Source: Tridacna crocea
Taxonomy: Eukaryota; Mollusca; Bivalvia; Cardiida; Cardiidae
NCBI GenBank assembly: GCA_943736015.1
Contig: OX031060.1
Span: 18,507,731 to 18,571,730, forward strand
DNA length: 64,000 nt
Reading direction: 5' to 3'
Below the pieces are notes generated by a model. That model ran no database searches and was not told the DNA's origin. It was given only the letters and a program-made list of their open reading frames with translations. Positions 164-53,789 of this stretch are shown piece by piece; the stretch's first letter is position 1, and each line of letters starts with the position of its first letter. The position numbers and the translations under genes were made by a program.

Positions 164-3100
164 CTGCAAGGCAGAGTAATATCTGAGGACCAAAATTTCT
201 TTCTGAGCATGCAAGGTGCATGTTATAATCAAATTGTAAAATATGAACCCTAAAATCCTTTTTCACACATGTCACATGTTTTAGAAAGAACTCCAAAGAC
301 CTCTGAAGCTTTCTTCACAACTATACTTGCTGTTCAGCCATAATGGGTCTAGATCAGACTGCACAAAACATGCAGTTTGATCTTTGATCTTAACTGTCTG
401 CATTGCTGAGACATCTCAGGAAAATCAACCACAATTTTATTTATCTTGGTCTTATTTCTAGACTTAAAATGTCTGTCAGGTTTAATCGGTGCTCTACAAG
501 TTAACCTTTTACTCCAAAGACACTCATTTCTATGCATTGCTTGTAGGAGCCTTTGGAAAACATTGTGGTAAAAGGTGAAATTGCTCGTGATGAGCAATTT
601 CACCTTTTGCCACAATGTTTTCTATGCTATAAAAAGGTGTCATATACACGTAAGAAACAGCTTCATCCTTGCTGTTATTTAGGATCAATTAGAAATACCA
701 TAGAAATGCCTTGTGGCGTAAAGGGTTAAAGTTGTTCCTAACTGGAGCAATTAAACTTACAACAGACAACTCTGGATACATCTTTGTGAAATATAGATAA
801 TAAATTAATGTGTATTCAGGTTAAATACATAAGCACTTGTGAAAAAATCATGTCACTGGGAGAAATTGCTTATCTTAACCACTTTATCCTTATGTCACAA
901 TGTTTTTAAAATCAATTTGCAGCAACAGTTGCCTATGTATTATTAATCTTGATGTCTGACACTGTGGAAAAAGGAGAAAATGCTGGTAACTAGGAGAAAT
1001 AGCATTTTCTCTTTTTTGCACAATGTTTTCTATCCTACTGGAAACAAATTCAACTTTTGAGTTACTTTTAATTTTTCATCTGCAAGTCCTTTTAATTTGA
1101 ACTTGTGTAAAATGCTGTCAATTTGTAAAAAGTCAATATGACAGACTCCTATGCACAATCAACAAATTAATATTGGAGGAAATAGCTAATATAAATTTCA
1201 GGACAAACACCTTAGTAAAACATAATTCCTGAACCAGTAAGAGTTGACTTTTGAAAATTGCGTCCTGCAAATCTCCAATATATGATCAATATATGTGCGA
1301 GGAGTTCACGACACGAAATTACTAGTATTTTGTACACAGAAGGACACACAGATGGACACATGGACGGACACACAGGCTGATTCCAGTACACCCCCAAAAA
1401 CATTCAATTGCAGAGGTATAATAACTTGATGTTATATAACTTTGACCGTGTTTACCTCAGTCTTTGGCTTGAAGAGATATATGTGCCAATTGCCTGTAAA
1501 GAAAATCTATAAACGGACAAGTAAGTGCACTGGCACCCCTGATGTAATCGAACTATCAATGTAACTAGTTTTACATGCTTTTACCCTTTACCACACAATG
1601 ATGACTTGTCATGACACTGAGGAAGAAGCCTTCTGAAAACATTGTAGGAAAAGAAGAAAATGCTGGTAACCAGCATTTTCTTCTTTTCCCACAATGTATT
1701 CTACCATTATACAGACAACTTCCATCATTTGAGCCACATCTCAATGATCATCTGCAAATGCTTTCAATTTTGATGAGTCTAAAATTTTGCTGTGTGGTGA
1801 AGATTTAAACTATAAAACTATGAAACTTTACCTGCTATATATTCATTGTTATTTCTGTGAGCATCTTTGAATTCTTGATTAAGATCTTCACTGACTTTGA
1901 TATCCTGGAACATCCGTGCTAGTTTATTCACATAGTCTGCTGGCATACCCACTTCCTGTTACATTTATATATACAATCACAGTAATAAATAGAGGATAAT
2001 CAACTGGTTTTTTTTGATATGAAAAATATCTCACGAGGATGCATTGTTAGGCGTTGAAAAAACGAGTGCGCAGCAGGAGTTTTTTTAACGCCTTGCAACG
2101 CATCCGAGTGAGATATTTTTCATATCAAAAGTAACCAGTTGATTATTCTATTTATTATATACCTTTTTGATATCATTAGTTCCCAAATTACTGCAGGAAG
2201 TGAAAGTGAAAGTTGATATCGTCACTAGTGATGATATCAAAATTTATTACACTGGGAAATTCCAGGATTTCACTGCTAGGTATATAATAAATATATATAC
2301 AAAATTATCATAGTTATAAATATTATTTGCTTGGTTTAGGTTTTAGGTTTGTCCAAATCGAAAGCATTTGCAGACGACAAAATAAAAGTGACTGAATTGA
2401 AATTTGTTTTGTGAAGGGTAGAAAACATTGTGGGAAAAAGGAGAAAATGCTGGTGACCAGCATTTTCTTCTTTTCCCACTATGTTTTCTATAGGCTTCTA
2501 TCTCAGGGTCATCAAAAGTAGGGATTGTGAGGTAATGGGTTAACTCTTTACCTGACGACAGTTTCCGACTACTCCAAATTGATTACATTTGCAGACAAGA
2601 TTAAATGATCATCTTACAATTTCTGTCTTTGAATGGGTAGAAATTTGAAAGCATTGTGGATAAAGGAGAACATTATCTTCAAAAGGCTTCATCCTTAGGA
2701 TTGCAAAAACTCCAGATTGTGTGGCACAGGGTTAATACGTCACCATGACACATAATATTATAAGTTGAAAAGATCTAAAAATAGCTAACACAATGACACT
2801 GTAAATGTATAATACAAAAGGATGCCTTAACTCTTTACCACACAATCCCGACTTTTAACGACACTGAGAAAAAAGCCTTTTGAAAACATTGTGGGAGAAG
2901 GAGAAAATGCTGGTAGCATTTTCTCCTTTTCCCACTATGTTTTCTATCCTTCCTGAATCAAATTTCATTCTTTCAGTCACATTCATTTTGTCATCTGCAA
3001 ATGATTTCAATTTAGACCAGTCAATAAAATTGTTGTTTGGTAATAAGTTAAAGCTAGAAAAGGCATTGAAAACATACCCGCAACCACTCCACCATATTTT

Positions 3101-6100
3101 CCTCTTTCTCATTGTCAGCTGAAGTATCTAATATAAGTCGGCGGGTGAGATGGGCCTTATGGTATCTCATAAATACATCTTTGTTCTGTACATACTTCAG
3201 CACCAATAGCTACAGTAAAAGAAAACCATGCTTTGACTTTTATCATGCCAGTAATCAGAAAAGCACTTGTAACTCTTTACCACACAATCCGAACTTTTAT
3301 CGACCCTGAGAAAGAAAACTTTTGAAAACACTGTGGGAAAAGGAGAAAATGCTGGTAACCAGCATTTTCTCCTTTTCCCACAATGTTTTCTACCATTTCT
3401 AATTCAAAATTCAATTTTTGATTAACACTTATTTTGTCGTCTGCAAATGCTTTCAATTTAGACTAGTCCAAAGTTTTGTCGTATGGTAAAGCGATAGTTA
3501 TTGCCTACATGGCAAGTTCACCTACAGGTCTAATTTCAGTTTTAATTCTTAATCCCAAGACCAGCCAACTATTTGTCTAAGACAAAATGTCTCAGCCATT
3601 CATATTGACGGTCTTGAAAATTCAAAATAAGAAAAAGATTTGAGCAGCACCCTAGCAAAAAGGGGTTTAACTGAGTCATACTGTACGTCAGCCTACTTGG
3701 ACTAGATTGACCTGGGTCAATACTTTCTGAAGATGTTTAAATCCCCTTTCCAGCTTAATACCTGTAATTCTCATGATACCTCACAAAAGTAAGGGTGAGA
3801 ACTATTCATCACTCAAGATGTAGGCATACACTGGTTGTATATACACATTAGATAATAAAAATGAGGTAAGTATTTGTGTTGATATGCAATCAAAATATTA
3901 TTTACTAAGTGCACAACTACCTCCAAAGTTAAAAGTCTAAAAGTTACCAACTCCACAAGTAACAAAATCACTTACAACATCTTTGAGTTTTTTCTCGACC
4001 TCCTCTGATGTAAGTTTTTTACTAAGTGGTGTTTTTCTGAGTAACATATCACAGTAATTGGCAAGCAGCTCAGGGCATTTGGACTCTGGTTGGGTTTTGG
4101 TGCCAACACTGCAAATAAATGTTATATCTTTTCCACATGTCTTTACCAGTCTACAAAATCTTAGAGTTGTCAATGTTGAAATATTTGAAGATGACAAAAA
4201 ATATTCAATTCAATTTTTACCAAATGACAATATTTTAGATTAATCTACATTGACGTGTGTGCAGATGACAAAAATATAGTTTAAATGGTTGAGTTTGTTC
4301 CTATGAAGGTAGATTACATCATAGGAAAAGGATTTGGATGTATTGGGGTTTAACGACACTTTAACAGCTAAGGTCACATCATGGCGGTCGGTGACGCACA
4401 TGTGTTTCCTGGCTTTCTCATATCAGCTCTAACACAACTTTCTTTCCAAAGGCACCAACTACTTTTCTCACATGCTCCAGCAGAGGTAAGAGGCGAAAAT
4501 ACGCCGGAAAGAAAGTACGCCTCAACCGGGTATCGAACTCACAACCACCAGGTCATGAGTCTGACACGCTCACCACTGAGCCACCCAGGTGGGCTAGGAA
4601 AAGGAGAACCACCATGGTAACAAACATTTTCTCCTTTTTCTCACAGTTTTTTATGACATCCTTTTGAAGACAAATACATGCATCATCCTTTTTTTTTTTT
4701 TTTAAGCATTATAATTGTTTACTTCAGTAATTTATCGTTAAGTTAATACATAGTAGAGAAAAGTTGAAATAAAATTGAAATTAAAAGAGGCATTCAGTGC
4801 ACACATGCATCATCATTCAAGCCACGTAAAATTTGTCCTCTACAAACAGTTTGATTTATAGAAGTCTACAAATGTTTCCTTTGGTAAAGAGTAAATCAAT
4901 TTCATCAGGTTATTAAGCCTTTCATTTTTTAGCAGAAATATTTATAAATAAGTTATTTTGGGGGCCCCAGAAGTAGAATGCAAGTGCAGATGAAGACAAA
5001 TTTGGTCTTGGTGTAGCCTCAAGTAACAGATGGTATAGATCAAAGATCAGACTGCACATTCTGTGCAGTCTGATCTTGATCTATGCCATCTGCAAAACCT
5101 AATTTTATCATAACTAGCAGCAATGGACTTATTGAGATGCAATGAAACATACATACCCTTTATTTTTAAGAGGTATCTCTAGTTTAAAGACACTGGTATC
5201 ATTTACAACTGTCTTGTATGCCTTGTCTCGAGCGGTGAGAAATCTTGGATCATCATTAAAGGCATCCAACACCAGTTTGCTAAATCTGTTGAATAACTCG
5301 AGCAGCTGTTCGACATACTTTTCAGAGTCCTATAAAATAAGAAAAAAAGACATTGCTCTTATTTGTTTTGTATTTAAAACTGTTTTCAACATTATTTCCA
5401 GTTTTGTAGCAGCCAGTACGTCCTTCCTTTACTGGAGTTGCTCTAACCCAGCCTTTGCTCATTTCTCATCTCAAGCCACTGGCTGCTTTCTCATATAATC
5501 AATGACTGAACAATAATCAGCGGTGAGAGAGGAATGAATCCTGTAGAAATTACTATCATTAACCCTCTGAAAGGAATTTGCTGAGCTGGGGATTTTAACC
5601 ACAAGCGCCCCGGTTTCATATCCTATTCTATCTATCCTCATTCTTACCGAGTATAGAATGACGATCTGGGTCCATTTTCATCAACCATTCTGAAGATTGT
5701 TCTTTGTGTTATTCTTTGAGAGTGAAAGTAACAGAACTTCAGATTGGCTAAACCATATATGGTTTAGCCAATCAGAAGTTCTGTTATGTTCACGCCGACA
5801 AAATTCTGAGGAATAAGATGAAGAATGTTGTTAAGAATGGTTGGTGAATACCGACCCCAGACTCATTCCTCTCTCATCACTGAACATTCTTTGACTTTGT
5901 GTAAATGGGAAAGTAACGAGGAGTGTGGAAAGGATTGTGCATGATATTGGAACAGGGAAGGACCAGAAACGTATGGACAGGTGCATGGATAAGCCTGCAC
6001 GTTAGAACAGTATCTATACATGTGTTAACCAGAAATGAAACAAGTCTATCTGTGTGTGATGAATCCAATGTTTGAGACAAACTGGAGAACATTACTAAGT

Positions 6101-20165: not shown

Positions 20166-20901
20166 CACCACCACACAGTAATGCTTAAGATCTCTGAGTC
20201 CTTCATGCATACAATGTAGATGGGAAAAGCAGCACTTTCCTTTCTTGATAAAGAAAGAGATTGTTATTCCGAAACTGATAAATACACCTCTCTTTTTCTT
20301 TATAATGAATGCAAATGAAAATCAATGCATCATTTTATAAACGCAGACGTAATATCCAACATTTAAACTAGTTTAAAAAACATCGCTTTAAAAAAAAAAA
20401 AAGCTTCTATATTATATTTTGACCTTCTTTTAACCACAAAATTTTATATAAGCTCCATGTCAAGCTATAAATTTTCCGATTGATCAAGATGCAAGAAACA
20501 TCTTTGGTCTAAGATCAACAATACTTTTCCTCCTATGATATCCCGATATAGACTATATCATTATAGTCAGAGGAGTCAGAATATGTAACAAAGAGCCGCA
20601 TTTTAAACATTCCATGGATAAATAAGGAAACTGACGAAACTGAAAAGAGCAATCCGAACGTCAAAAGAAATCCTTTTTTACACGTAACACATAATCTGAT
20701 AAAAATGCAGGGAATGTACAGCATGCGAAGTCCAGGTAAACAAAAATAATTTGTAACACATTTTCATTCAACTTGTATGCTGGAACAATCCTGAAAGTGG
20801 AATGACAAACTAGTTAATCATATGAAAGGCCAGCAATCGGATACTTGTTGTAAAGCCGGATGTAACCTGGTTTTCGGACAGATCAACTTTACAGTGCAGT
20901 A

Positions 20902-21060
20902 TTAAATTCTTTACCAAACGACAGAAATTGTAACAACGACAAAATTGTAGACTTGTTCGAATTCAATCAAACTGCAGAGGACAAAATAAACTTGAATCAA
21001 AAAATTGAAACTTGACCTTAGAAGAGTAAACTACAGTGTTTGAAAAGGAGAAATTGAAAT
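20902..21060 (-). mobile_element. TTAA MITE half copy
   Basis: 3' arm and the first hairpin arm only; breaks after aaaggagaaattgaa. Confidence 0.65.
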
Positions 21061-21383
21061 CTTTAAAATTGGGTAAGAAATCATTGTAAACACCTGGGTG
21101 TAGACACGTGTGCAGCAGCACCAAAACTATCGGTTGATATGGCTTGTCACACCGATAAAATTGGCTGATGCGGTATGATGCCGCGCCAATAATTGATAAT
21201 TATTAAGATAGAAAATGTGAACAACATGTAAAAGTGGCAAATATAAAAAAAAAACAACTGATAAACTTTCCTTTTCTTAGTGAAATTTAGAGTGAATGTA
21301 AACACATACAAATTTCTCATATTACAACATTACTTTGTAGTTAATAGTTAATGTATATCTAGTACAGATAACTGTCACAAAAG

Positions 21384-21582
21384 TACCTTCAGTCTGAAGG
21401 TGTCTGCTCCGATGCTATTTTTGTGACAGGTCTTCGCTAACACCTTCAGTCCAACCATTCATTCAAGGCTTCTGGAAAAGATACGACTTTACCCACATCT
21501 TTTCGAACGGCTCTATGCGACAAAATTTCCAATGACAGCTAATAAAATGGGTATGGATCGTTAGATGAATGATTAATCTTTA
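21384..21582 (+). repeat. Left 199-bp terminal inverted repeat
   Basis: It begins TACCTTCAGTCTGAAGGTGT and includes the words tctgctccgatgc and cttttcgaacggctctatgc. It has its own small palindrome cttcagtctgaag. Confidence 0.88.
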
Positions 21583-21876
21583 AGAGCACACAAAATATGC
21601 TGCAAAATACCAATTAAATCAATGGGAATTTACCTTTTTCCCAACGTGAATAAATCCAGCATAGTTTGTAAACAACTAACACGGCGACTTCCGTTAGTCA
21701 GGCATGCGCACTCAACGGAATTTGAAATTTGTACAGTCTGGTTCCCTAACCCTATACAGCCAAGTTCGATCAAGGTGCGTTTGTTTACAGAAAAATTCGC
21801 AACTAAACCATCCTGTAGCGTGTCAGAGATACTGCGATTTCTGCTGAGACATGCGCATTGAAAAGATCACCATGTT
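21583..21876 (+). promoter_or_regulatory. UBE2J1 promoter/5'UTR between the inverted repeats
   Basis: It holds an ETS-type word (cttccgtt, ~21,689), two NRF1-like TGCGCA words (21,705 and 21,852) and more CpG than its surroundings, as in housekeeping promoters. It lies directly upstream of the UBE2J1 start and wholly inside the 789-bp element. Confidence 0.5.
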
Positions 21877-21937
21877 ATGATTTCTGGTGAAGTAGGTCAA
21901 CGATTATTTACGTTGAAAAGTACAGATTTGCACAAAG
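21877..21937 (+). CDS. UBE2J1: UBE2J1 exon 1 (start codon)
   Basis: ATG at 21877 opens [20 protein letters not shown] and ends in phase 1 at a gtaaga donor, exactly what exon 2 needs (G|CT gives Ala in AVKRLMKEA). A TGA lies in frame six codons upstream, so this is the first in-frame ATG. An overlapping two-codon uORF (ATG TTA TGA) starts at 21872. The FTLKS part weakly recalls the YNLKS of vertebrate N-termini, but the exon is longer. It lies inside the 789-bp inverted-repeat element. Confidence 0.72.
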
Positions 21938-24900
21938 GTAAGAGTTGGATATTAACTAACATCAGTTTTTTTGTAAAGATTAATCATTTATCTAACAATC
22001 CATGCCCATTTTATTAGTTGTCATTTGAAATTCTGTCGCATAGAGCCGTTCGAAAAGATGCAGGTAAAATCGTATTTTTTCCATACGGGTTCAATGAATG
22101 GCTGGCCTGAAGGTGTTAGCGAAGACCAGTCACAAAAATAGCATCGGAGCAGACACCTTCAGACTGAAGGTATCACAAAAGGAGATGTTGCTTTTTGACT
22201 GGTTGCCTCTGGGTACAGAGACAATCCGTACAAAATTAGTGGAAAGTTCTGCACAGATTTTGTGCGCAAGTTTGAACCTTTATAATTTCACAAATAGAGC
22301 ACAAAACTAGGATTTAAACATACCTGTTGCTTGTGTATTCAACATATGATACAAGACAATGACACACAACACAAAACAAACTAGCCTGATTTTAATTTTA
22401 TTTTTATTTAGCTGTCAAGCGGCTGATGAAAGAAGCACAAGAGTTAAGTGAGCCAACTGAGCAGTACTACTGTCAACCACTTGAGGTAAACTTGTCATGT
22501 TTTCCCTGAGATAAAGTCTAACAATTTTTTTTTAGTAGCCAACTGGGCCCCTAAAATTGAAAATTTAGGGGCCAAGTCAAAAACTTAGAGCCCCAGGATT
22601 AAAATTTCAGTAAAAGATAAAAACTTCAATAAAATTTGATTAAAGCTAACAATGCCCATAACACTCTGGGCACTTCATTGACCTAAATTCCTCACTAAGC
22701 AACTTTGCAAATACTTTACCCTGATCTAACCATTTAGAAACAACGCATATTTATGTAGATCTTATTGGCACTGATATCGGATAAAATCAGAATCTGCTTA
22801 GAAACAATTTTTGAAAACAAAAAAAAATGGATGACAAATAACTGATGAAACACATATAGCTATAGATACTCTAGAAATGGGGTTTTTGTGCATCGTTATG
22901 TATGCTGAATGTGATAGGAATTTGGTGAAAATACCCAAACGTCAATACACAGTCATAGTGTGTCTACACAACTGTGCTCTACACTCGGTACTAGGCTAAT
23001 ACGGAAAAAATTTTCTGTAGAGTTGTATTAGCGAGTTAGGTAACACCCATACTTACTCGGATCATAGATAGGTGTATAATGATAAATGAAAATCAGTACT
23101 ACATTATATGGAAATGGGCAAAATATACAGTAGACCTTTACCGAAATTTTTCCAGGGACCATCAGTCGCTCAGCTAGGCTATCATACAGGATTTTTCAGT
23201 CGTTTCAGTTGTCATGGGCAACTGAGGGAGTGCTAGTCTTTATCCCTGTTTTCTTGTTTAGCCTTTTTCCAAACCAACCAATGTTTAAACTTAACCTTTT
23301 ACCAATCAATTCCGAATTTTAACACCCCTGGGAAGGAAGGCTTTTGAAAATATTGTGGGAAAAGGAGAAAATGCTGGTAACCTAAGCCAGCACTTTTCCC
23401 TTTTTCGACAACGTTTTCTTTCCTATCAAAGAAAAATTGCATCTTTCGAGCCATCTTTAAATTGTTGTCAGCAAATGCTTTTAATTTGAACATGGCTAAT
23501 TTTTTTTTTTTTGTCTGGTAAAAGGAAAATGGGCTGAATAAAGCCAACAGAGAGTTTAGATATAAAATTCAATTAACTTTGTACCACACGACAAAATTTT
23601 AGACTGTTTCTAATTGAAAGCATTTGCAGACAACAAAATAAAGGTGACTGAAACATTGAAATTTGATCTAGGAAGGGTAGAAAACACTGAGGGAAAAGGA
23701 TTAAATGCTGGTTACCAGCATTTTCTCCTTTTCCTACAGTGTTTTCAAAAGGCTTCTTTCCCAGGGGCGCCAAAAGTAGGAATTGTGTTGCCAGTTCATC
23801 TTTTTTTATTTTTGGTGTACATTGCTTCAGCTTAGTAATCTGATATTTATCTACTTCAGCCGCAAAAGAAGCTGTAGGTTTGAAAAGCACTAAAGGGTAA
23901 ACAACCCTCAGAAAGATGACTTTTGAATCAGTTTGGTAAAAGAAAATGCAGGCGACTAATATTCAAGTACCGGCTAAGGTTCTAAATATCCCCTTTGCAA
24001 TCTCTGAAAATAATGTACGAGTTCCCAAATGTACAACTTTTCTTTGGGCATAGATAAGCTTAGCGGTAGTTTTAGCTGTACTATTCTTAATATTTTTTAC
24101 TACATTGGGTAAGCCAGAGAATATAGGCATTCTGGTATGTATAATGTACATGTGTATGTAAATCCTTGCTAAGGCCTCAAATATCAGGTAGGGTTCCAAA
24201 CTTCCTATGATTGCATTAACTCATTACCAAACTACAAAATTTTTGGCTTGGGGGTAGAAAACATTGTGGGAAAAGGAGAAAACGCTGGTAACATTAAAAA
24301 AAGTTTGTCTTTAGAGTTTCCAAACCTTAACCTTATTATTCTGGGATTGGCAAAAAAAACAACTTTGTCCCGTGTGACTTTGGTACATTTTGCATGTAAA
24401 AAGTTATTTGGAACAAAAATCACTACCTACCCTACTTGCAACATCTTGGACCGAACCCATAAACACAGATAATTTTTTTAGGCCTAGGGCAAAGATTGTA
24501 GATACTATACAAGCAGATGTTTATGTATACCTGTATGATTGTGATCCCTTGCAAAGGCTGATATCTTTGTTAACTTTTTACAACACAATGGTGACATTGA
24601 TCGACCCTGAGGAAGAAGTCTTTTGAAAACCTTGTAGGAAAAGGAGAAAATGCAGGTAACCGGCATTTTCTCCTTTTTCCCACAAAGTTTTCTACCATAT
24701 CAAAGAAAATTTCATCATTTTAGCTACTATGAAATATTTGTCTGCAAATGCTTTCAATTTGGATAGGTCTAAAACTTTGCTTTGCGATAAAGCGATAAAT
24801 GGCTAACATTGAAAAAAAAAATGTAATGACTCTCTAGTCTCTATGAGTAAGCTGTAATTTGCAGGGGTCCAAACTTTTGTCATGCAATAGCCCAGCTCTT

Positions 24901-27900
24901 GTTTGTTCCCTCATAAAAAGGCAGAGTATATTTACTTACAGGATAACTTGTTTGAATGGCATTTCACTTTAAGAGGACCAGCTGACACAGAATTTGAAGG
25001 CGGTTTATACCATGGACGTATCATACTTCCACCAGAATATCCCATGAAACCACCAAGTATTATTCTTTTAACAGTAGGTCGATTTTTATGCAATTACATT
25101 TTTAACAAACAGTAATACTTTAGACTCCTCTAGATTTAACTCTTTACCAAACAACAAAATTTTAGATTGGTCAAAACTGAAAGCGTTTTCAGACAACAAA
25201 ATAAAAGTGACTGAAAATTTGAAATTTATTTTTGTGAAGGGTAGAAAACAGTGTGGGAAAGGAGAAAATGCTGGTTACTAGCATTGTTTTTCCTTTTTCC
25301 ACAATGTTTTCTAAAGGCTTCTTACTCAGGGTTGTCAAAAGTAGGGATTGTGTGGTAATGGGTTAATGTAATTATAGTTGAAAAATATTTCATTACACCT
25401 GCTAAATGGCATTCTATAAAAACTCATCTATCTAATTTGGGCATCCTGGGTACAGAACCAAACCACTTTCCTACACGACAACCGTTGCTTTGAAGTTCAA
25501 ACTAAAATAAACGTTTACTCAATAAAACATTACCTCGTGCAATTCACTCAGCTATGATCAGCAGTTTAGAGAAATATGGAGCTAAAGCAGGCCTGATTTC
25601 TCCTCAAACGTATTGATAAGAGCTCATTTCTACATTGCTACTTTATAGAGCGTAATACATGTATTACAGTCTGCCTGCTTTCGGGGCTAGTGCATCCTCG
25701 CAAGCCAAGGCTGATGATACTATACCCTTGGCGGATCGAGCTTGATTTTTACATTCACCTGATACGCTTTTTCATTGGATGCTGCAAGCTCTAACTGCAA
25801 CGAATGAAATCGCTCGTAGCATTTCATCTTTGATAAAAATAGAATAAGGTCGCTTCCTTTCGAATAGAAAGTAAACATGGAAACTTATGTGGATGTCTGC
25901 TTATCGATTTATGTGTATTCGTAAGTGGTTTGTAAAACGATATTTCATTGGCTCTTAGGAATATGATGTAAAGGGGGGTAATAACCAGCATCCAATAGAG
26001 GGTGCATCGCAGGAATCTTGAAATTGGGCTCAATCAGCCAAGGTAAGATCCACATAGTGATCGTAATCTTGGCTCGTGAAGATGGGGCTAGTGATGCGTC
26101 ATATATTAAGACAGGTTAAATCTTCGAAGAATATGACGTGCGCAGACAACAAAAAGTATTTGGCTCAAATATTGAGGGTTATTACTGAAAGAGTAGAAGA
26201 CATTTTGGAAAAAAAGGAGAATGCAATTTTCAAGAGGGTGCTTTCTTAGGACGTTAAAAGCATGGAATAATTTGGTAAATATTTCTATTAACCCTTTACC
26301 ACACAGTGTCAACTTCTGACGATCCTGAGAAAGAAGTCTTTTGAAAACATTGTGGGAAAAGGAGAAAATGCTGGTAACCAGCATTTTCTCCTTTTCCCAC
26401 AATTTTTTCTCACCTCATTGATAGAAATTTTAAATTTTCAGTCACATTTTATTTTGTCGTCTGCAAATGCTTTCAATTTGGACCAGTCTAAAATTTTGTC
26501 ATTTGGTATTGAGTTCAAGTTACCGGTAAATAATATGTTTTAAATGTAATCTTGATGCATATTTTCGCAGTGCTTTTAATGCACGAATGACACTGAATCC
26601 ATACAACAATAGGCAAAATTGCTTTATCACATTAAAGAAATGATCTGTATAGGGCCAGTTAAAATTATGTGAAACCTGAATGAAGTTTTTACCAACTAAT
26701 TTCTGTCTCTTGCAGCATAATGGTAGATTTGAAATAAACAAGAAGATTTGTTTGAGTATATCAGGCCATCACCCAGAATCTTGGCAGCCATCTTGGTCAA
26801 GTAAGTTGATCCTAGTATACCGTAATTCACCAATGGATTCGGACACAATTAATTATGACTTGTGTGAAACAGACCAGTGAGTTTGGAAGAAGATTTTGTG
26901 AGGCACTGGTAAGAGAAACATCAGGAAAGAGTGGATAGGTGCATTGGCCATCATGACACAACTGAAATATTTTTGAAAACAGTTTTAAAGGTGGCCCTTC
27001 AGAATTTGGGACCAAAGTTGTACAAAAATACAAAAAGATCATCCTTATATTCCCAAAGCCTTTTAATTTTCATTCTTAAAACTAGCAGTCGAAAACCATT
27101 AGACAGCAAGAGAAATTGGAAATTTACTACGGCTCAGGTCGATAGTGATGGGAAACACAGTCTATTTTTACATGAGCAACTCGCCCATTTACATACCAGA
27201 AATACACAAACAAAGCTTCAAACAGAGAAGACATTATGGAAAATAATTACATATGTTATAGAATCTAAGCATCATTAGTCACAAGCCAGTCACTTGAAAT
27301 TCCCACAATGCTTTTTTGATTTCTGGCACAAAATCAACTACCATAATCAACTGGAGTCATACATGTGTTTTCCTTGTTGTTTGAAAGTTCCATCTGTTTG
27401 AACATGTCTAAAAATTTGTCGTTTGGTAAAGAGTTAAATAAAAAACATTACATGTATTTCTATTGTAGTTCGCACAGCTCTTCTTGCCATTATTGGGTTT
27501 ATGCCAACACACGGAGCTGGGGCCCTGGGGTCCTTAGATTATACACCTGACGAGAGGAAGGTCTTAGCTAGAAAGTAGGTCTACGCTAAATGTACAGTTA
27601 TGAGAAGACAAAAATTACCTTAACCCTTTGCCAAACAATCCCTGGTTTTTAAGACCCAGAGGAAAAAGCCTGCCGAAAGCATTGTGGGAAAAGAAGAAAA
27701 TGCTGGTAACAATGTTATCTTCTCTTCCAAAGTCAAATTTCAATTTTTGAGTCATATTTATTTTGTTGTCTGCAAATGCTTTCAATTTGGACAAGTCTAA
27801 AAGTTTTGTCGTTTGATAAAGAGTTAATTATGGACAACAAAATTTTAGCTTGGTCCATATTGGAAAGCGATGCAGAAGACAAATTGACAACTACACAAAG

Positions 27901-30900
27901 TGATATTTGTCTATTATATGGTAGAAAATATTGTGGGAAGTTATATATTATGGACTTATGGAGCACTGGTCCTGGTAACTGAATAAACATTCAAAGGAAA
28001 GGACATTGGTCTTTAAAAGCATTTGTTCAAGGTGAGGTTTAGTTTTTAAAAAGCCATTTTGCCTTCTTGAACAATTCTTACAAACAAAGTCTGTAACAAA
28101 GAAACAAATGAACAATGCAACGAAGAAATAAGCAACCAGGTAGGATTCTAACCTTGGAATGCCCAGACGAAAGGCAGGCACCTTAACCACTTAGCCAAAG
28201 AAATATCATGCCATGCATGGAGGAGTGGTCTCATGTAACACACTCCCTCTTAACCCTTTCCCAAACGGCAAATTTTGTACCAGGCCAAATTGAAAGCATT
28301 TTGCAGATGACAAATTAACAGTTGCTAAAAAGATGATTTTTCTCTATGATAGGGTAGCAAACATTGTGGGAAAAGGAGAAAATGCTGGTTACCAGCATTT
28401 TCTCCTTTTCCCACAATGTTTTTAAAAGGCTTCTGTAACCTGACCTGTAAAAACCAGGGATTGTTTGGGAAAGGGTTAAAGTCATCTTTTACTGATAACT
28501 GAAAGCCGAAAGGTCGTTTTTTGGACAACAAATGGGATTAATGGCTCAATGGCCAATTCTGGATGAGTCCCCACCTTTTGAGCAAACTCTTTAACAAAGA
28601 AACAAATTAATAAATGGATGGGAGAAATAAGGGAACGGGCAGGATTTGAACCATAGAACGCCTGGACAAAAGGCAAATACCTTAACCATTGAGCCAAAGA
28701 TATATCTCTCCAACGCAGATGTTAAGTATTGTATTTAAGTTGGGATGAAGCCATGTATGTTGGAGTGGTCTCCTGTTACACAATCTTTTCTATAGCTCTA
28801 TGCAGCAGTGGGATAGAAAGGTGTATTTTATACAATATGGGTTTAGTATATTGCTTAATGTTGAAAACAGCTAGTAGTGAAGGTCAGGGATGACAGAGGA
28901 ATTAATCCTGTCAATGACTATCATCAGTCCTTGGAAAGAAATGAGCCCATCCAGGAATCAAACCACTGACCTCCTGTTCTCAAGTCTTGCATGCTACAGA
29001 CTACGAAGCTCTGCTCTAGTGGGTAGGACAGGATGTTTTAACCCTTTACCACATGGCAAAAATTTAGACCCAACCAAAAAGAAAACGTTTGGAGATGACA
29101 ATTTCAAAGTGGCTCAAATGGTGCAACTTTTCTTTGATAGGGTAGAAAACTTTGTGGAAAAAGGAGAAAATGCTGGTTACCAGCATTTTCTCCTTTTCCC
29201 ACAATGTTTTAAAAAGGCTTCTTCCTCAGGGTTGTTAAAAGTCATCATTGTATGGTAAAGGGTTAAAAGGCAGTTCCTTGAGAAACTTAATGGAGGCATG
29301 GAGAAAATACTGTTGAAAAAAGAAGTAAATCTGTTCCAGATAACAAAACTTTAGACACGTCTAAACTAAAAGCATTTGTTGCCCACATAACAAATGGTGA
29401 TCAAAAGATGGGATCTTTGAAAAGGGAGGAAACACTGCAGAAAAAGGCGAGAATACTGATTACTTATATTTTCTCACAATGTTTTGGAAGCCTTTTGCCT
29501 CACAGAACTCTTTGGATAAAAGTCAATAAATTTAGCGTTTGTGTTCTCATTGCAGGTCTATAGATTTTAAATGTTCGGAATGTGGGCCAATAAACCATAC
29601 CCTAAAAGCAGTGACTGTGGCCTCATTGAAAACAAGGGAAGAGGCTAAGCAGCTTGCTGCTCAGATGGATTTTAAAGTAAGAGTTGAGTTTACCTTGTTC
29701 CTTGCTTCACTATGACAGCTTTTCAGCCCAAATTCAGGGACCCATTGGGATATTGATAAAGCCCGGGAAAGACAAGAATTAACTTTTTACCACACAACCC
29801 AGACTTTTAACGACCTTGAGAATGAAAGCTTTTGAAAACATGGTCTTGATCTACACTGTCAGCCGAGCCCCAGTTTTCAGCTTTGGCACTAAAAATTTAG
29901 GGTTCAAGGTCTCATATCTTTTTCGACATCCTTATTTTAGCAATCCTACTTTCGAAATTGGCTAAATTTTCAGTATCATTTTCAAGCTACAGATTTGATT
30001 ATTTACATGAGAAGTGTTTCAGTCGGATCACAGCAAATGTTTATGAACACTTAACCAAATGACAAAATTGTAGACTTGTCCAAATTGAAAGCATTTGCAG
30101 AATAAATGCAAAATAAATGTGACTCAGAAATTGAACTTGACTTTTGTAGAGTAGAAAACATTAATTGTGGGAAAAGAAAAAAACTGCTGGTAACCAGCAT
30201 TTTCTCCTTTTCCGCACAACGTTTTGTACCCTTCCTGAAACAAATTTCAATTTTTGAGTCCCATTTAGTTTGTAATCTGCAAGTGCTTTGACTTTGGACA
30301 AGTTTAGAATTTTGTCATTTGGTAAAGAGTTAATTTACAAAACTATGGATCATACATTTGTATTTTAACTTTGTGCAGAATGAGAAAGAAAAGAATGCTG
30401 CTTTGAAGATAGAAACCACTGAAGAAACAAAACAAAGCACAAGTACTGAGACCTCTGGTACAACTGAAGGTGGCATATCACAGTCAGCCAAAGGGGCCAT
30501 TCCAAAAGTGAAAACAAATCAACCCTTTCCACAGCCAGCACAGTTTGCACAATTTCCTATGCCTCTGCCATTTCTACCGCCATTTCCTATACCTGGAAAC
30601 ACCCAAAATGATCAACAGCAAGGAAATAATGTTTTAAATCAAGTCCCAAGATTTCCTCTTCCCTTTGCTGCACCATTTTCCCCACCTTTTCCCCAATTCA
30701 TGCCTCCCATGCCCATGGTACCAGGTATGAGCTTTCCGGCTGTTCCTGCAGGAAATAGAATCAGCAGAACTTCAGAAAGTGGTAGTGAGACGATGAGAAG
30801 CCAAACGGCAACAGAATCTACAAGTCAGTCTGACCAAATACAATCAACACAGTCTAGTGTTGTATCCAGCTCTCAGCCCAGTGAAAATTTACCCACAACT

Positions 30901-31170
30901 ACATCAACACCTTCCACATCACAGCAACTGCAATCAACAACTCAGACAACTGGTGAGGGACTACGTCAGAGAAATGTGACAGAAACAACCAATGTGACGC
31001 CACAAAGGGCAACTACGCCTATTCAACGACAGACACAAGGTGAAATACCAAGAAGTGGTCCAAGAGAGTCTGTCGCATTTGTGGTGTTTGCTGTGATAAT
31101 CATATCTCTGATAGCAATGCTTCTTTTACGAAGGTTGTACATGATGAAGTATTTATCTGGTCTTATATAG
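21877..31170 (+). CDS. UBE2J1: UBE2J1/UBC6-like ER ubiquitin-conjugating enzyme, complete, 7 exons
   Basis: This is a tail-anchored E2 of ER-associated degradation. Exons: 21877-21937, 22412-22485, 24942-25073, 26716-26800, 27469-27574, 29556-29676 and 30379-31170. All have GT/AG borders and matching phases, giving 456 residues. The UBC fold shows [60 protein letters not shown] and [20 protein letters not shown]. The catalytic Cys is in [19 protein letters not shown] (about residue 101), and YPMKPP replaces the usual HPN region as in the UBC6 class. The last exon holds a long Pro/Phe- then Ser/Thr/Gln-rich linker and a C-terminal hydrophobic anchor ([18 protein letters not shown]) followed by RRLYMMKY. 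It is longer than human UBE2J1 (318 residues) because of the linker. UBE2J2 is less likely given the length and tail. Confidence 0.95.
21974..22172 (-). repeat. Right 199-bp terminal inverted repeat
   Basis: This is the reverse complement of the left arm, starting 36 bp after the UBE2J1 exon-1 donor, so it lies in intron 1. Confidence 0.88.
22412..22485 (+). CDS. UBE2J1: UBE2J1 exon 2
   Basis: It encodes (A)[18 protein letters not shown] then YCQPLE. Acceptor ttatttag, donor gtaaac, 74 bp, phase 1 to 0. Confidence 0.95.
22486..23290. other. UBE2J1 intron 2, unique-looking part
   Basis: Between exon 2 and the first MITE. A small inverted pair (ggggcccctaaaattgaaaa / aatttaggggcc) at ~22,548; otherwise nothing recognised. 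Confidence 0.5.
23291..23524 (+). mobile_element. TTAA MITE, family A
   Basis: Hairpin asymmetric (ctggtaacctaagccagc). In UBE2J1 intron 2. Confidence 0.83.
23573..23790 (-). mobile_element. TTAA MITE, family A
   Basis: Left TTAA intact, right end lost after aggaattgtgttg. Confidence 0.83.
24217..24295 (-). mobile_element. TTAA MITE fragment
   Basis: TTAACTCATTACCAAAC, then a deleted 3' arm, then one hairpin arm only. Confidence 0.7.
24570..24797 (+). mobile_element. TTAA MITE, family A
   Basis: Hairpin centre GCAGGTAACCGGC. Ends ~145 bp before UBE2J1 exon 3. Confidence 0.85.
24942..25073 (+). CDS. UBE2J1: UBE2J1 exon 3
   Basis: It encodes 44 codons from [12 protein letters not shown] to PPSIILLT, the beta-sheet core of the UBC fold. 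Acceptor ttacag, donor gtaggt. A family-A MITE begins ~62 bp after the donor. Confidence 0.96.
25136..25366 (-). mobile_element. TTAA MITE, family A
   Basis: Complete with both TTAA, in the intron after UBE2J1 exon 3. Confidence 0.9.
26140..26280 (-). mobile_element. TTAA MITE remnant
   Basis: Recognisable by gacaacaaaaag and agagtagaagacattttgg; hairpin lost. Confidence 0.5.
26288..26516 (+). mobile_element. TTAA MITE, family A
   Basis: Left TTAA intact; right end reads gagttcaa. ~200 bp before the catalytic exon of UBE2J1. Confidence 0.87.
26716..26800 (+). CDS. UBE2J1: UBE2J1 exon 4, catalytic cysteine
   Basis: It encodes [20 protein letters not shown] then ESWQPSWS, holding the active-site Cys. 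Acceptor ttgcag, donor gtaagt, 85 bp, phase 0 to 1. Confidence 0.97.
26985..27340 (+). mobile_element. Family E element, 3' truncated, in a UBE2J1 intron
   Basis: Starts TTAA-AGGTGGCCCTTCAG and ends early near ttctggcacaaaatc. It lies in the intron between exons 4 and 5. Confidence 0.85.
27370..27437 (+). mobile_element. TTAA MITE fragment
   Basis: Only the 3' arm end (aaaatttgtcgtttggtaaa) is left, ~31 bp before UBE2J1 exon 5. Confidence 0.7.
27469..27574 (+). CDS. UBE2J1: UBE2J1 exon 5
   Basis: It encodes (I)[17 protein letters not shown] then [17 protein letters not shown]. Acceptor ttgtag, donor gtaggt, 106 bp. A MITE remnant ends ~31 bp before the acceptor. Confidence 0.96.
27620..27827 (+). 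mobile_element. TTAA MITE, A/C mosaic
   Basis: Hairpin second arm mostly lost. Shares TTAA at 27,824-27,827 with an inverted half copy to 27,940. Confidence 0.8.
27824..27940 (-). mobile_element. TTAA MITE half copy
   Basis: 3' arm and the first hairpin bases (gtagaaaatattgtggg) only. Confidence 0.7.
28010..28249 (-). mobile_element. tRNA-derived SINE, copy 1
   Basis: Minus strand TTTGGCTAAGTGGTTAAGG and B-box-like GGTTAGAATCC. A sister copy follows at 28,500-28,790 with a family-C MITE between them. Confidence 0.65.
28250..28479 (-). mobile_element. TTAA MITE, family C
   Basis: Complete with TTAA at both ends, between two SINE copies. Confidence 0.9.
28500..28790 (-). mobile_element. tRNA-derived SINE, copy 2
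   Basis: Minus strand TTTGGCTCAATGGTTAAGG and GGTTCAAATCC. Shares ggagtggtctc and the flanking body with copy 1. Confidence 0.7.
28880..29037 (-). mobile_element. tRNA-like SINE fragment
   Basis: Minus strand TAGAGCAGAGCTTCGTAGTC and GGTTTGATTCCTGG. The upstream part (gacagaggaattaatcctgt) recurs at 5,525-5,550. Confidence 0.5.
29038..29266 (-). mobile_element. TTAA MITE, family A
   Basis: Complete with TTAA at both ends. Confidence 0.9.
29333..29525 (-). mobile_element. TTAA MITE, decayed
   Basis: 3' arm and hairpin recognisable (gagaatactgattac). Ends ~30 bp before UBE2J1 exon 6. Confidence 0.6.
29556..29676 (+). CDS. UBE2J1: UBE2J1 exon 6
   Basis: It encodes (K)[38 protein letters not shown] and FK. 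The Cys pair CSECG matches CEGCG of vertebrates. Acceptor ttgcag, donor gtaaga, 121 bp. Confidence 0.94.
29779..29843 (+). mobile_element. TTAA MITE 5' fragment
   Basis: First ~60 bp of family A, broken inside the hairpin arm at gaaaacatgg. Confidence 0.7.
30051..30333. mobile_element. Symmetric family-A MITE (two 3' arms)
   Basis: Second full-palindrome copy: both arms carry the 3'-type gtctaaaatt sequence. Ends 46 bp before the last UBE2J1 exon. Confidence 0.85.
30379..31170 (+). CDS. UBE2J1: UBE2J1 last exon, disordered linker and tail anchor
   Basis: Acceptor gtgcag leads in phase 0 into [21 protein letters not shown] Pro/Phe-rich stretch ([28 protein letters not shown]) follows, then ~130 residues rich in Ser, Thr and Gln, then a ~20-residue membrane anchor and a short lumenal tail ending in TAG. 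The gene's conserved catalytic domain is upstream; this exon supplies ER anchoring. Confidence 0.94.
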   Translation, partial: NEKEKNAALKIETTEETKQSTSTETSGTTEGGISQSAKGAIPKVKTNQPFPQPAQFAQFPMPLPFLPPFPIPGNTQNDQQQGNNVLNQVPRFPLPFAAPFSPPFPQFMPPMPMVPGMSFPAVPAGNRISRTSESGSETMRSQTATESTSQSDQIQSTQSSVVSSSQPSENLPTTTSTPSTSQQLQSTTQTTGEGLRQRNVTETTNVTPQRATTPIQRQTQGEIPRSGPRESVAFVVFAVIIISLIAMLLLRRLYMMKYLSGLI

Positions 31171-33859: not shown

Positions 33860-36370
33860 TCAATCAAACCTTCCTGAGTTTTTAATAAATTCTTGGACAG
33901 AATAAACTATTTCAATATTATCATTAAGGCTTAAATTATCACATCCAAACAATAATGAATTTAAGTTTAAAGGGTGATATTTGCGGAGTTTGCGAAATAA
34001 CATCAATCTTTGATTGGTATATGACAGGCAGTGAAAAAAATAATGCTCCGCATCTTCAACATAATAGCCACAGTGGCACAAATTACTTTCCGAAATGTGG
34101 TTTTTGTGTAAGTCAGATTTCAGGTCGCTGCAATTATTTCTTGATCTCGCTTGAAAGACTGAGAATTTGCGATCTCCTACACCAAAGTATTTTGGGACTA
34201 CAGACACTGGAAATTGACGCAAGATTGTTGACTTGAACATAGCAAGTGATTGTAGTGATTTTGTTTCCATCGGCAAATTGTTCCATAGAGATATTGCCGA
34301 CGGAATAAACGACTTCGCAAAGATTTCGGTACGGCGGACCAATGTTTCAATATCTAGGGAATTTCGAAGGGAATATACTGTACTATTTCCAACAGTTGAT
34401 GGAAACAGTTGACATAAAAAGTCTGGAGCTTGACCATTGATGATTTTAAACGTTAAAATAAGTTTCTGGTATTTACGTCTGTCGGACAAGCTCAGCCAGC
34501 CGATCTCTGTATACAAATTTATAAGAGAAGTGGATCTCGTAAGTCCTGTAACTATTCTTGCAGCTTCGTTTTGAATTTTTTCAAGAGAATCTCTTTCACT
34601 AAAGGTACAGTTATCCCATACAACAGAAGCATACTCAAGAAGAGGGCGTAAAAATGATATGTAAAGTTGGTTCAAAGAATTTCGGCTTATTTTGAATTTT
34701 ACTGCCCTCATCATTCCAAGGATTTTAGAAGCCGACACAGTCAATTGCCTTATATGTTCACGCCATTTTCCATTTGCAGAAAGGGTTAAACCTAAGTGTT
34801 TATGGTGTTCAACAAAACTTATTTGGACATTATCGAAGAACAAATTTGGGCTGGGAACGGTTTTTGCAGAAAAGATCATTGCTTCAGTTTTTTGGGGATT
34901 GAATGTAACCAGCCACTGCTTTGCCCAGTAAGAAATCATTAGTAAGTCATGATTAAGTATACCCTGAATATCTTTAACTGCTGCAGCTGAACAAGCTAAT
35001 GATGTGTCATCAGCAAATAAACGTGAAATGCTGAGCAGGTTTTCAGAAATATCATTAACATAAATTAGAAATAGAAGAGGGCTGAGAACTGAGCCTTGTG
35101 GAACGCCCGCCTTAACATTCATTAGTTTTGACTTCGCAGTACCAACAAATACTGCTTGTTGTCTATTTGAAAGATAACTTTTAATCCAATTTAGCAAACA
35201 ACCATTAATTCCATTTTGTTGCAATTTGAAAAGTAGACCCTTATGCCATACTCTATCAAAAGCTTTCGAAATATCACAAAAAACCATACAAGTATTCTGG
35301 TTAGAGTCCAGAGAAGAAACAACTTGATGATAGATATCAATCAGCTGATGAACAGTAGAATGACCTTTTAGAAAACCTGACTGCTTTTGGTATATTATGT
35401 CATTTGAAACAAAGAAATTGTACATATACTTGTAGACACACCGTTCCATTAATTTTCCAACACAACTTAGTAAAGATATAGGACGGTAGTTACTAACTCA
35501 AGATTTGTCTCCTTTTTTGAACAGTGGCATGATAATAGACTGTTTCCAACTTTGCGGAAAAGTTTCTTGATCAAGAGATTTATTGAAGATCCTACACAAT
35601 GGCTTTGATATACTGTGTTTTGTAGCCTTGAGTAGTTTATGACTTATTTGATCCGGTCCAATTGCTTTATTTATGTCTAATGTTCCAATAATATTTTCAA
35701 CATCCGCAACAGAAATTTGAATGGTTGAAAGAGTATTTAGTGTTTTGTGAACAAAGTTTGGTAAAGTGGCATTTGAGTCATCTAAAGTTGATATGGAAGT
35801 AAAATATTCGTTCAGACAATTAGCTTTATCTTCGTCAGTATAATGAAACGTTTCTAAGTCATTATTCAATGTTTTCAAAACTGGAATCGAATTAATGCTG
35901 GTACTGTTGTTGACCAAACTGCAAAGATATTTCCAGTACTGTTTTGGATTTTCAAAACGCGATGAGGATAGACGTTCGTCAAGATTACTGTAGTAGCGTT
36001 GTTTAGCGTATTTCTTTAGGTTATTTACTTTATTGCGCATTTTCTTGTATTTTTCCCAATCATTTATACGCTCGGATTTCGTAGCTATAGCCTTTAGTCT
36101 GTCTCGTTGTCTACTTGTTCTTCTTATCTCCGAATCGTACCACGGTCTGTCGTTAGGTCTTATCGTAATTTCTCCAGAAGGAATACACTGGTTCATCAAA
36201 TTCATTAAAATACGGCTAAAGCGGATACATGCATCATTTATGTTAAGGTTGTCTATGAAATCCCAGCACTCATTGTCAATTAATAAATTAAGCTGGTTAA
36301 AGTCAGCTCTGTCGAAGTACCATACCTTACGTTTTGAACAATGCCTTAGAGGCTGATTTAATTTATGTAA
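33860..36370 (-). pseudogene. 5'-truncated non-LTR retrotransposon reverse transcriptase with one TGA
   Basis: One frame reads from about 36,370 to 33,860 and is broken only by a TGA at 35,498-35,500 within KKGDKS*VSNYRPISLL. Reverse-transcriptase blocks in order: NKAIGPDQISHKLLK, YRPISLLSCVGKLMER, KQSGFLKGHSTVHQL, DISKAFDRVWHKGL (catalytic Asp), GVPQGSVLSPLLFLIYVND and FADDTSL (catalytic DD). A C-terminal CHCG...HYFFHC motif follows, as in Jockey/CR1-type elements. The frame opens with FLHKLNQPL just after a stop, with no endonuclease, so the copy is 5' truncated. No other stop or frameshift was seen. Confidence 0.88.
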
Positions 36371-36661
36371 AAATTAATAGAAATTACGTATTCGTCATCA
36401 AGACGATTTATAACTCCTGCTTTATTTTAAATTTGCCTTACATGATTAAAACCAATGATGAAACTTGTTTAACAATAAACATAGCGAAGTGAATCAAATG
36501 CTTAGTAATAAAATCACGTTTTTCTTTCTATTTTTTTTTAAGGAAGATAAAGTTACTATTAATGAAAAAAAAAAAGCATATTGGATACTTTGAAAATATT
36601 TATCCATCATTATAAAAATATGTTTTATATATGAAAAAAAAAAACATAAGCATCAGCACAT

Positions 36662-51075: not shown

Positions 51076-51775
51076 AGAGACGATTTCAATTTTGTGAAAA
51101 CCATTTTTCATTTTGTCCATTTCGGAAAAAAACATATTCCATTGTGTATTTTAGGCCTACCCAGGAAACACCATCTATCTGCTGATAGATGACACATTAC
51201 CTAGGTCTTAGTGAAACCATACGACTTTAGCAGTAAAAGGAAATGTTAGGCAAATCCCATTATGGTGCCCTATCCTTAGAATTAACGCACAAACAAACAC
51301 TGACAGAAACTTTGCTTTTGAATTATTTCTTTTGCACTTTGTCCGTCTGTGTGGATACCAACACCATCTTTTGAATATAAATTATGGATGAATAATTCTT
51401 AAGGTATAAGACAGTTTTGAAGGGTGTTGTCTGCGCATGTCATATTCTTCAAAGATTTAACCAGTGTCATTTCAAGCCATTCAGAAATGGCACTTTATGT
51501 TTCTGCAAATCAGGGATATCAAGTAGCACACATTTATACATGATGTTAAGAGAGGTTGCAGCTTTTGTGAAAAGGTTTGAAACATGGTCATTGAGGCTGA
51601 AAGAAACTAGAGCTGTCACTGAATGCGACTTAACCCTTTACTCCACAGATACTCATTTCTACGCATTGCTTGTAGGAACCTTTGGAAAACATTGTGGCAA
51701 AAGATGAAATTGCTAGTGACGAGCAATTTCACCTTTTGACACAATGTTTTCTATGCTATCAAAAGGGGTATCAGG

Positions 51776-52120
51776 CCATTTGCCCCCTGGACATCTGCCC
51801 CCCGGACTTCTGCCCCCAGACTTTTGCCCCCTTAGGACACCTGCCCCCTGGACATCTGCCCCCGTAGGACATCTGCCCCCTGGACATCTGCCCTCCGGAC
51901 ATTTGCCCCCGTAGGACATCTGCCCCCCTAGGACATCTGCCCCCTGGACATTTGCCCCCATAGGACATCTGCCCACTTAGGACATCTGCCCCCTGGACAT
52001 CTGCCCCCGGACATTTGCCCCCAGGACAGCTGCCCCCGGACATTTTTTCCCTTACGACATTTGCCCCGGTAGGACATCTGCACCCGGATATTTGCCCCTG
52101 TAGGACAACTGCCCCTTGGG
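51776..52120 (-). repeat. Minisatellite in left arm of fold-back element
   Basis: About 20 units of ~14-18 bp, CCCCCTGGACATCTG and CCCCCGTAGGACATCTG variants. The Gly/Cys/Pro-rich open frames across it are an effect of the repeat. Confidence 0.92.
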
Positions 52121-52197
52121 AAACGATAAGTCTAGCCTAAATGATGTTGAAGAACTAATAACACCTTGAATTTTGCTTTATTTTTCTTAAAATGCAA

Positions 52198-52213
52198 ATA
52201 ATAATAATAATAA
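52198..52213. repeat. (AAT)n microsatellite
   Basis: Five to six AAT units inside the left arm of the fold-back element; its mate in the right arm is absent. Confidence 0.85.
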
Positions 52214-53249
52214 TTTTAATCGGGGTTTACAGCAAGCGTGCCAGATGAGTAACTGACTCTGTCATACTGGAAATTTGATATTAAAACTGAAATCAAGTAA
52301 TCAGCTAAAGATTTTCAGCAAAATAGCACTTAACGATACAGCAGCTGAGAAGTCTTTTTTATAGTGCCGCTCAAAATTACAATGTACAATAAACGTGTAT
52401 ATCTCAAAGTTGCTTTTTTGAGATTGTGCATTAAAAGAGCTTGACATCCAAGTTGTAAGCAAACTTGTTTTTTTACAAACATGGTCGGAAAACTAGTTTT
52501 ATTCCTTCGTGCAGGTGGCAGCATCAGTAGCGCTCAGTGATTGTTAAGACTGGTGCCCGGTCCAATGCAACTAGCCCATGATATTCACGTCAGTACATAT
52601 CACCGACAATAGGTGGCAGCACCGCAGGCGTCGCGTGGATAGAGAACCAGTGACTGAGTGTTTACAACTTGGACGTCCAGCTCCTTTAAATGCATTTTGG
52701 AAATGCAGTATAAACACTATTTCGCATGCCAGATGAGAAACTGACTTGTAAATTGCTGTACTGAAAGTTTTGGATAGTAAAACTGAATTCAATTTAATCT
52801 TCGGCTGGTTAAATTGAATTCAGTTTTACTATTCAAATCAAACTTTCAGTACAGCAATTAAGTCAGTTTCTCATCTGGCACGCGAAACAGTGTTTCAACT
52901 GAATTTCTAAAGCGCATTTAAGGGTCAATCTCAAAAAAGCAACTTTGAGATATACACCTATATTGTACATGGTAATTTTGACCAGCACTATGAAAAAGAC
53001 TTCTCTGTGTTGTTAAGTGCTATTTTACTGAAAATCTTCGGCTGATTAATTGATTTCAGTTTTAATATTAAACTTCCAGTATGATAACTATAGAGTCAGT
53101 TACACATCTGACACGCCTGCTGTAAACCCCGATTAAAATTGGGGTGGTTTTTTTTGCATTTTAAGAAAAAAAAAGCAAAAATTCAAGGTGTTTTTAGTTC
53201 TTCAACATCATTTAGTGTGTTCGTCCGTGTGTCCGTCGTTTCTCAGGAC

Positions 53250-53391
53250 GCAGATGTCCTACGGGGGCAAACGTCCAGGGGGCAGATGTCCTATGGGGGC
53301 AGATGTCCTACGGGGGCAAATGTTCGGGAGGCAGATGTCCTAAGGGGGCAGATGTCCGGGGGGGGGGGGGGGGGGTGGGGGGGGCAGATGT

Positions 53392-53427
<36 letters not shown>

Positions 53428-53616
53428 AATGTCCTAAGGGGGCAGATGTCTGTGGTGCACATGTTCGGGGGGCACATGTCCTAAGGGGGCAGATGTCTGG
53501 GGAGGCAGATGTCCTACGTTGGCAGATGTCCGGGGGGCAAACATCCAGGGGGCAGGTGTCCTAAGAGGGCAAAAGTCTGGGGGCACAAGTCCGGGGGGCA
53601 AAAGTCCAGGGGGCAA
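53250..53616 (+). repeat. Minisatellite in right arm with long G runs
   Basis: The inverse of the left array, GGGGGCAGATGTCC. Two units are expanded to unbroken G tracts (18 G at 53,358-53,375 and 32 G at ~53,394-53,425), which the left arm lacks. Confidence 0.92.
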
Positions 53617-53789
53617 ATGTTCTAGACCCATCAAAAGGTGTCATATACACCTAAGATACAGCTTCATCCTTGCTGTTATTTAGGGTCAATTAGAGATACC
53701 AAAGAAATGCCTTATTAGGTAAACGGTTAATACCCCGCCAGCACTTTGACCGAAAAAAATGTCGAGTTCAGGGGGAGATAATTCCACAA

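Follow-up and report, generated by a model that had tools for sequence, protein, structure and literature searches.

Does UBE2J1 of Tridacna crocea start inside a transposon? In the 64,000-nucleotide stretch of DNA analyzed here (the window), an element with long inverted ends lies upstream of the second exon of this gene, and contains an ATG, a splice donor and promoter-like words. A sequence-only reading of the window took it to hold the promoter and start exon of UBE2J1. Our analysis leads to a different answer. We conclude that this is very probably an ordinary intronic insertion of a 789-bp non-autonomous transposon, with UBE2J1 starting from its own exon 1 upstream. The element and its flanks have the following parts.

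21375..21383, no strand assigned: left 9-bp target duplication, TCACAAAAG (read directly)
21384..21582, plus strand: left terminal inverted repeat, 199 bp, starting TACCTTCAGTCTGAAGGT (repeat search)
21583..21973, no strand assigned: 391-bp transposon core, common to the aligned full copies; not UBE2J1 sequence
21974..22172, minus strand: right terminal inverted repeat (repeat search)
22173..22181, no strand assigned: right 9-bp target duplication, TCACAAAAG (read directly)

The 9-bp word is perfect on both sides, and the element between the two duplications is 789 bp long. Its inverted arms are 199 nt in length, 91% complementary and spaced by 391 nt. In a BLAST comparison of the element with the window the arm pair has E of about 5e-77, far beyond chance; the remaining matches there are short, and there is no second copy of the element within the window. 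To this point the sequence-only reading was accurate, the 199-bp arms and perfect 9-bp repeats being present where it had placed them.

We searched the 1.05-Gb assembly (31 contigs), in which the window occupies G000:C5:18507731-18571730, with the 807-bp stretch. Full-length matches, core included, were found on many contigs, mostly with 98-99% identity and ending at or near the arm tips (about 10-798 of the query). The claim that this is a mobile element with long inverted ends and 9-bp duplications is thus borne out by many near-identical copies across the genome. Of 2122 first-look candidates, 40 were scored, so the true copy number is probably larger than that listed. We sampled 45 distinct full copies from 41 loci. 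The alignment has 48 rows, including two repeat reads of copies where loci L006 and L007 overlap, and a diverged sequence with a truncated left end (L015_2564); the 45 distinct copies are those that remain when these are set aside. Being the best scorers, they bias the sample towards young copies, and they are 95.6-99.7% identical to their own consensus. A perfect 9-bp target duplication flanks 37 of the 45, with 36 different words. Of the other eight, three have duplications that differ at a single base, one has a perfect repeat of 10 bp, and four lack a clear duplication. When flanks were taken from different copies as a control, perfect 9-bp duplications arose at a rate of 0.04 per 45 (the mean is 0.84 if unswapped pairs are included). 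Only 4 of 789 sites separate the window copy from the consensus of the 48 aligned rows, which indicates that this copy is recent. Arm-to-arm identity is also 87-93% in the matches listed for other copies, and the mismatches between the arms are therefore mostly a feature of the family. The element is a transposon, a member of an abundant family, that inserted recently at UBE2J1.

Thirteen of the 45 insertion sites lie in or adjoin another copy of the element, often at arm ends (loci L002, L006, L009, L014, L015, L017, L021, L034, L040 and L041), which suggests that the family inserts into or close to its own copies; these are the best-scoring copies, and the figure is uncontrolled for abundance in the genome.

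Where the gene itself starts depends on the exon structure around the element. We take the gene to be UBE2J1 from a tblastn comparison with the human protein, in which 51 residues of exon 3 are 80% identical and the other exons have further matches. The gene model is as follows.

20705..20735, plus strand: candidate conventional coding exon 1 of UBE2J1, MQGMYSMRSP and the first base of an Ala codon, then a GT donor
20736..22411, plus strand: intron 1, 1,676 bp, holding the transposon
22412..22485, plus strand: exon 2
24942..25073, plus strand: exon 3
26716..26800, plus strand: exon 4
27469..27574, plus strand: exon 5
29556..29676, plus strand: exon 6
30379..31170, plus strand: last exon, with a hydrophobic C-terminal stretch at its end (likely a membrane anchor)

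Exon 2 starts CTGTCAAGCGGCTG after AG, and an alanine codon should therefore begin with the last base of exon 1. Between the start of the window and exon 2, we scored each GGT donor for which the preceding seven codons are stop-free, comparing the encoded peptide with RYNLKSP of the human UBE2J1 start. The best donor is that at 20735, where MYSMRSP scores 22 and is preceded by an ATG at 20705; the runner-up scores 16. MQGMYSMRSP|A of 20705-20735 is in phase with VKRLMKEA of exon 2. With an in-frame ATG required, a score of 22 was reached in none of 300 shuffles of the 22.4 kb upstream and in none of 1000 shuffles of the nearest 5 kb, the maximum being 18; the shuffles were first-order and preserve base transitions only on average. 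Elsewhere in the window, the same scoring reaches at most 11 past the gene on the plus strand and 4 anywhere on the minus strand. A genome search with 20600-20840 gave no match beyond that stretch itself. The sequence-only reading had seen no conventional first exon, and tblastn with the human sequence did not report the 31-bp exon either, being unable to detect one so short. UBE2J1 thus appears likely to keep a normal first exon at 20705-20735, a placement that rests on similarity to the human start.

With this exon included, the gene model comprises seven exons, bordered by GT..AG, and encodes 446 aa with a hydrophobic end. Residues 14-119 of the product match UQ_con (PF00179) at 2e-17, and among solved structures its best relatives bear the names ubiquitin-conjugating enzyme E2 6 (yeast Ubc6) and E2 J2; these matches support the gene, not exon 1 itself. 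Given a conventional exon 1 upstream, the element lies inside the 1,676-bp intron 1.

Several other features of the window may be recorded here. Downstream of UBE2J1, two long open stretches at 33860-36373 on the minus strand resemble a non-LTR-type reverse transcriptase by eye. There are many repeats of about 230 bp throughout the window, in both orientations, with roughly 87-93% identity among the pairs listed. A tract at 51771-53619 encodes GGKCPGG/MSGGQMSRG-like repeats on both strands and has a 721-bp inverted match (78%). A search of the window with Rfam gave no matches at gathering scores.

We turn now to the start that was proposed within the element. Two short frames overlap there.

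21877..21937, plus strand: frame taken by the sequence-only reading as UBE2J1 exon 1, 20 residues followed by a GT donor
21872..21880, plus strand: ATG TTA TGA, a two-codon frame that precedes and overlaps the claimed start; family consensus ATG TTT TGA

The ATG at 21877 and the splice donor are both present as described. The element is in the sense orientation relative to UBE2J1, and the 20-codon frame that runs to a GTAAGAG donor after 21937 would join exon 2 in a compatible phase. Position 21877 is T in the family consensus, giving TTG, and the window copy has acquired ATG through a T>A change. The word containing this ATG, ATGATTTC, occurs in 0 of the 47 other aligned rows. Of the 45 distinct copies, 42 have T at this site and the window copy alone has A; the search word was unmatched in the remaining two, neither of which has an ATG there (L008 has one T fewer at the site, and L009 one changed base before it). 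Four diverged relatives extend over this position, and all have TTG: L034 and L040 (about 79% identical), L021 (92%) and L015 (94%). A 40-mer that includes the ATG of the window copy occurs once in the assembly. The simplest account of the coding frame is therefore that a single point change, private to this copy, created it by chance. The earlier ATG at 21872, absent from the sequence-only reading, lies in an ACCATG context that looks better for a start than that of 21877, and is stopped after two codons. The donor word CAAAGGTAAGAG is present in 43 of the 45 copies, and is therefore a feature of the family, not an adaptation at UBE2J1. Compared with the UBE2J family start, the final seven residues of this frame score −8.

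These observations bear on how the locus is to be interpreted. The family with its duplications, the position between a conventional-type exon 1 and exon 2, and the ATG specific to this copy are all read in the DNA. Beyond these we infer that a transposase supplied in trans recently placed the element in intron 1 of UBE2J1, with duplication of 9 bp of intronic sequence. UBE2J1 would be transcribed from its own start upstream, and exon 1 (20705-20735) would be spliced to exon 2 (22412). The transposon would be transcribed within the UBE2J1 pre-mRNA and then removed with intron 1, leaving splicing undisturbed.

The alternative that survives best, while still distinctly unlikely, is that the transposon gives UBE2J1 an additional promoter and first exon beside the conventional one, the private ATG leading to an N-terminally altered isoform. 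The sense orientation, the donor and the frame in phase with exon 2 are all consistent with this, as are the core words GCATGCGCA, ACATGCGCAT and ACTTCCG, which resemble NRF1 and ETS sites. Yet the window copy is alone among the copies read in having the ATG, the preceding ATG with its apparently better context runs into a stop, and the donor is common to the family. The more specific proposal, that this copy serves as a second promoter and, by way of the T>A change at 21877, gives a UBE2J1 isoform a new N-terminus in the species or the individual, is less likely again. A non-coding alternative 5' exon provided by the element would be compatible with all the points against an additional promoter. 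The element might also act as a weak alternative promoter, though we do not favor this.

Replacement of the native promoter and start exon by the transposon, the explanation preferred by the sequence-only reading, draws on the element, its ATG and its donor being upstream of exon 2 and in phase with it. It is opposed by the phase-compatible conventional exon 1, situated 0.64 kb upstream and matching only itself genome-wide, and by the poor score of the end of the element's frame. With a normal first exon just upstream, takeover of the promoter and start is very unlikely.

Capture of the UBE2J1 promoter and first exon by the element, as in a Pack-MULE, can be dismissed with near certainty; Mutator-like elements do tend to acquire fragments of host genes, according to PMC6446971, but the core is common to the aligned full copies and to relatives of about 79% identity, and the stretch around UBE2J1 exon 1 (20600-20840) matches nowhere else in the genome. 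The distribution of the core contradicts capture of a UBE2J1 exon and likewise leaves replacement very unlikely. The shared core and the unique exon stretch together contradict an origin of the core in UBE2J1, a statement that concerns UBE2J1 only.

As for the core, the relatives of about 79% identity keep much of it, including the so-called exon region and a GGTA donor. It is therefore an old part of the element, not one recently taken from UBE2J1. The core may represent what is left of the transposase promoter and first exon of an autonomous parent. A scan of the element for bacterial promoters and terminators, which is inapplicable to an animal gene, gave two promoter-like sequences (shuffle mean 2.1) and one terminator-like sequence (0.5).

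For annotation, the locus illustrates a trap. The donor, promoter-like words and chance ATG of a young transposon can mimic a first exon when the true one is only 31 bp long. The family, recently active, high-copy and non-autonomous in an animal genome, is useful for annotation while being of a familiar kind.

We would class the element as non-autonomous and Mutator-like, on its structure only. The MULE domain (PF10551) has 61 matches in the genome; at 30 of these 61 loci, taking 1.5 kb on each side, there were no matches to the arms at E of 0.01 or better. The IS1595-type (Merlin, DDE_Tnp_IS1595, PF12762) has five matches in the genome, with open frames of 90-101 aa, and no arms of the element were found within 1.5 kb on each side of any of the five. 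No autonomous parent being present among the MULE-domain and IS1595-type loci read, the name Mutator-like reflects structure and not descent.

One of these 30 MULE-domain loci has a 515-aa open frame (L072, about 2876-5999 in G000:C9:7510500-7518500). With its GGACGTTTTGGCCACGG end repeats it resembles Rehavkus, for which PMC6446971 gives 9-bp target duplications. Close to one end of this MULE, units of about 155 bp are arrayed in tandem, and its frame is listed in 14 copies without stops and in one with a stop. Like our element it has long inverted ends, but these read as GGACGTTTTGGCCACGG repeats and not TACCTTCAG. The 8-kb stretch around it contains no arms of the element and has quite different ends, and its best match to the element is 19 nt with E of 0.064.

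In comparison with a Pack-MULE, the core of the element is distinct from UBE2J1 and could be traced to no other host gene, whereas the arrangement of inverted arms around a core with promoter-like words and a splice donor is similar. Unlike autonomous Mutator-like elements it has no transposase within. It resembles elements of the MULE/MuDR superfamily in its 199-bp inverted ends and in its 9-bp duplications, which fall within the 8-11 bp of MULE target duplications given in PMC6446971.
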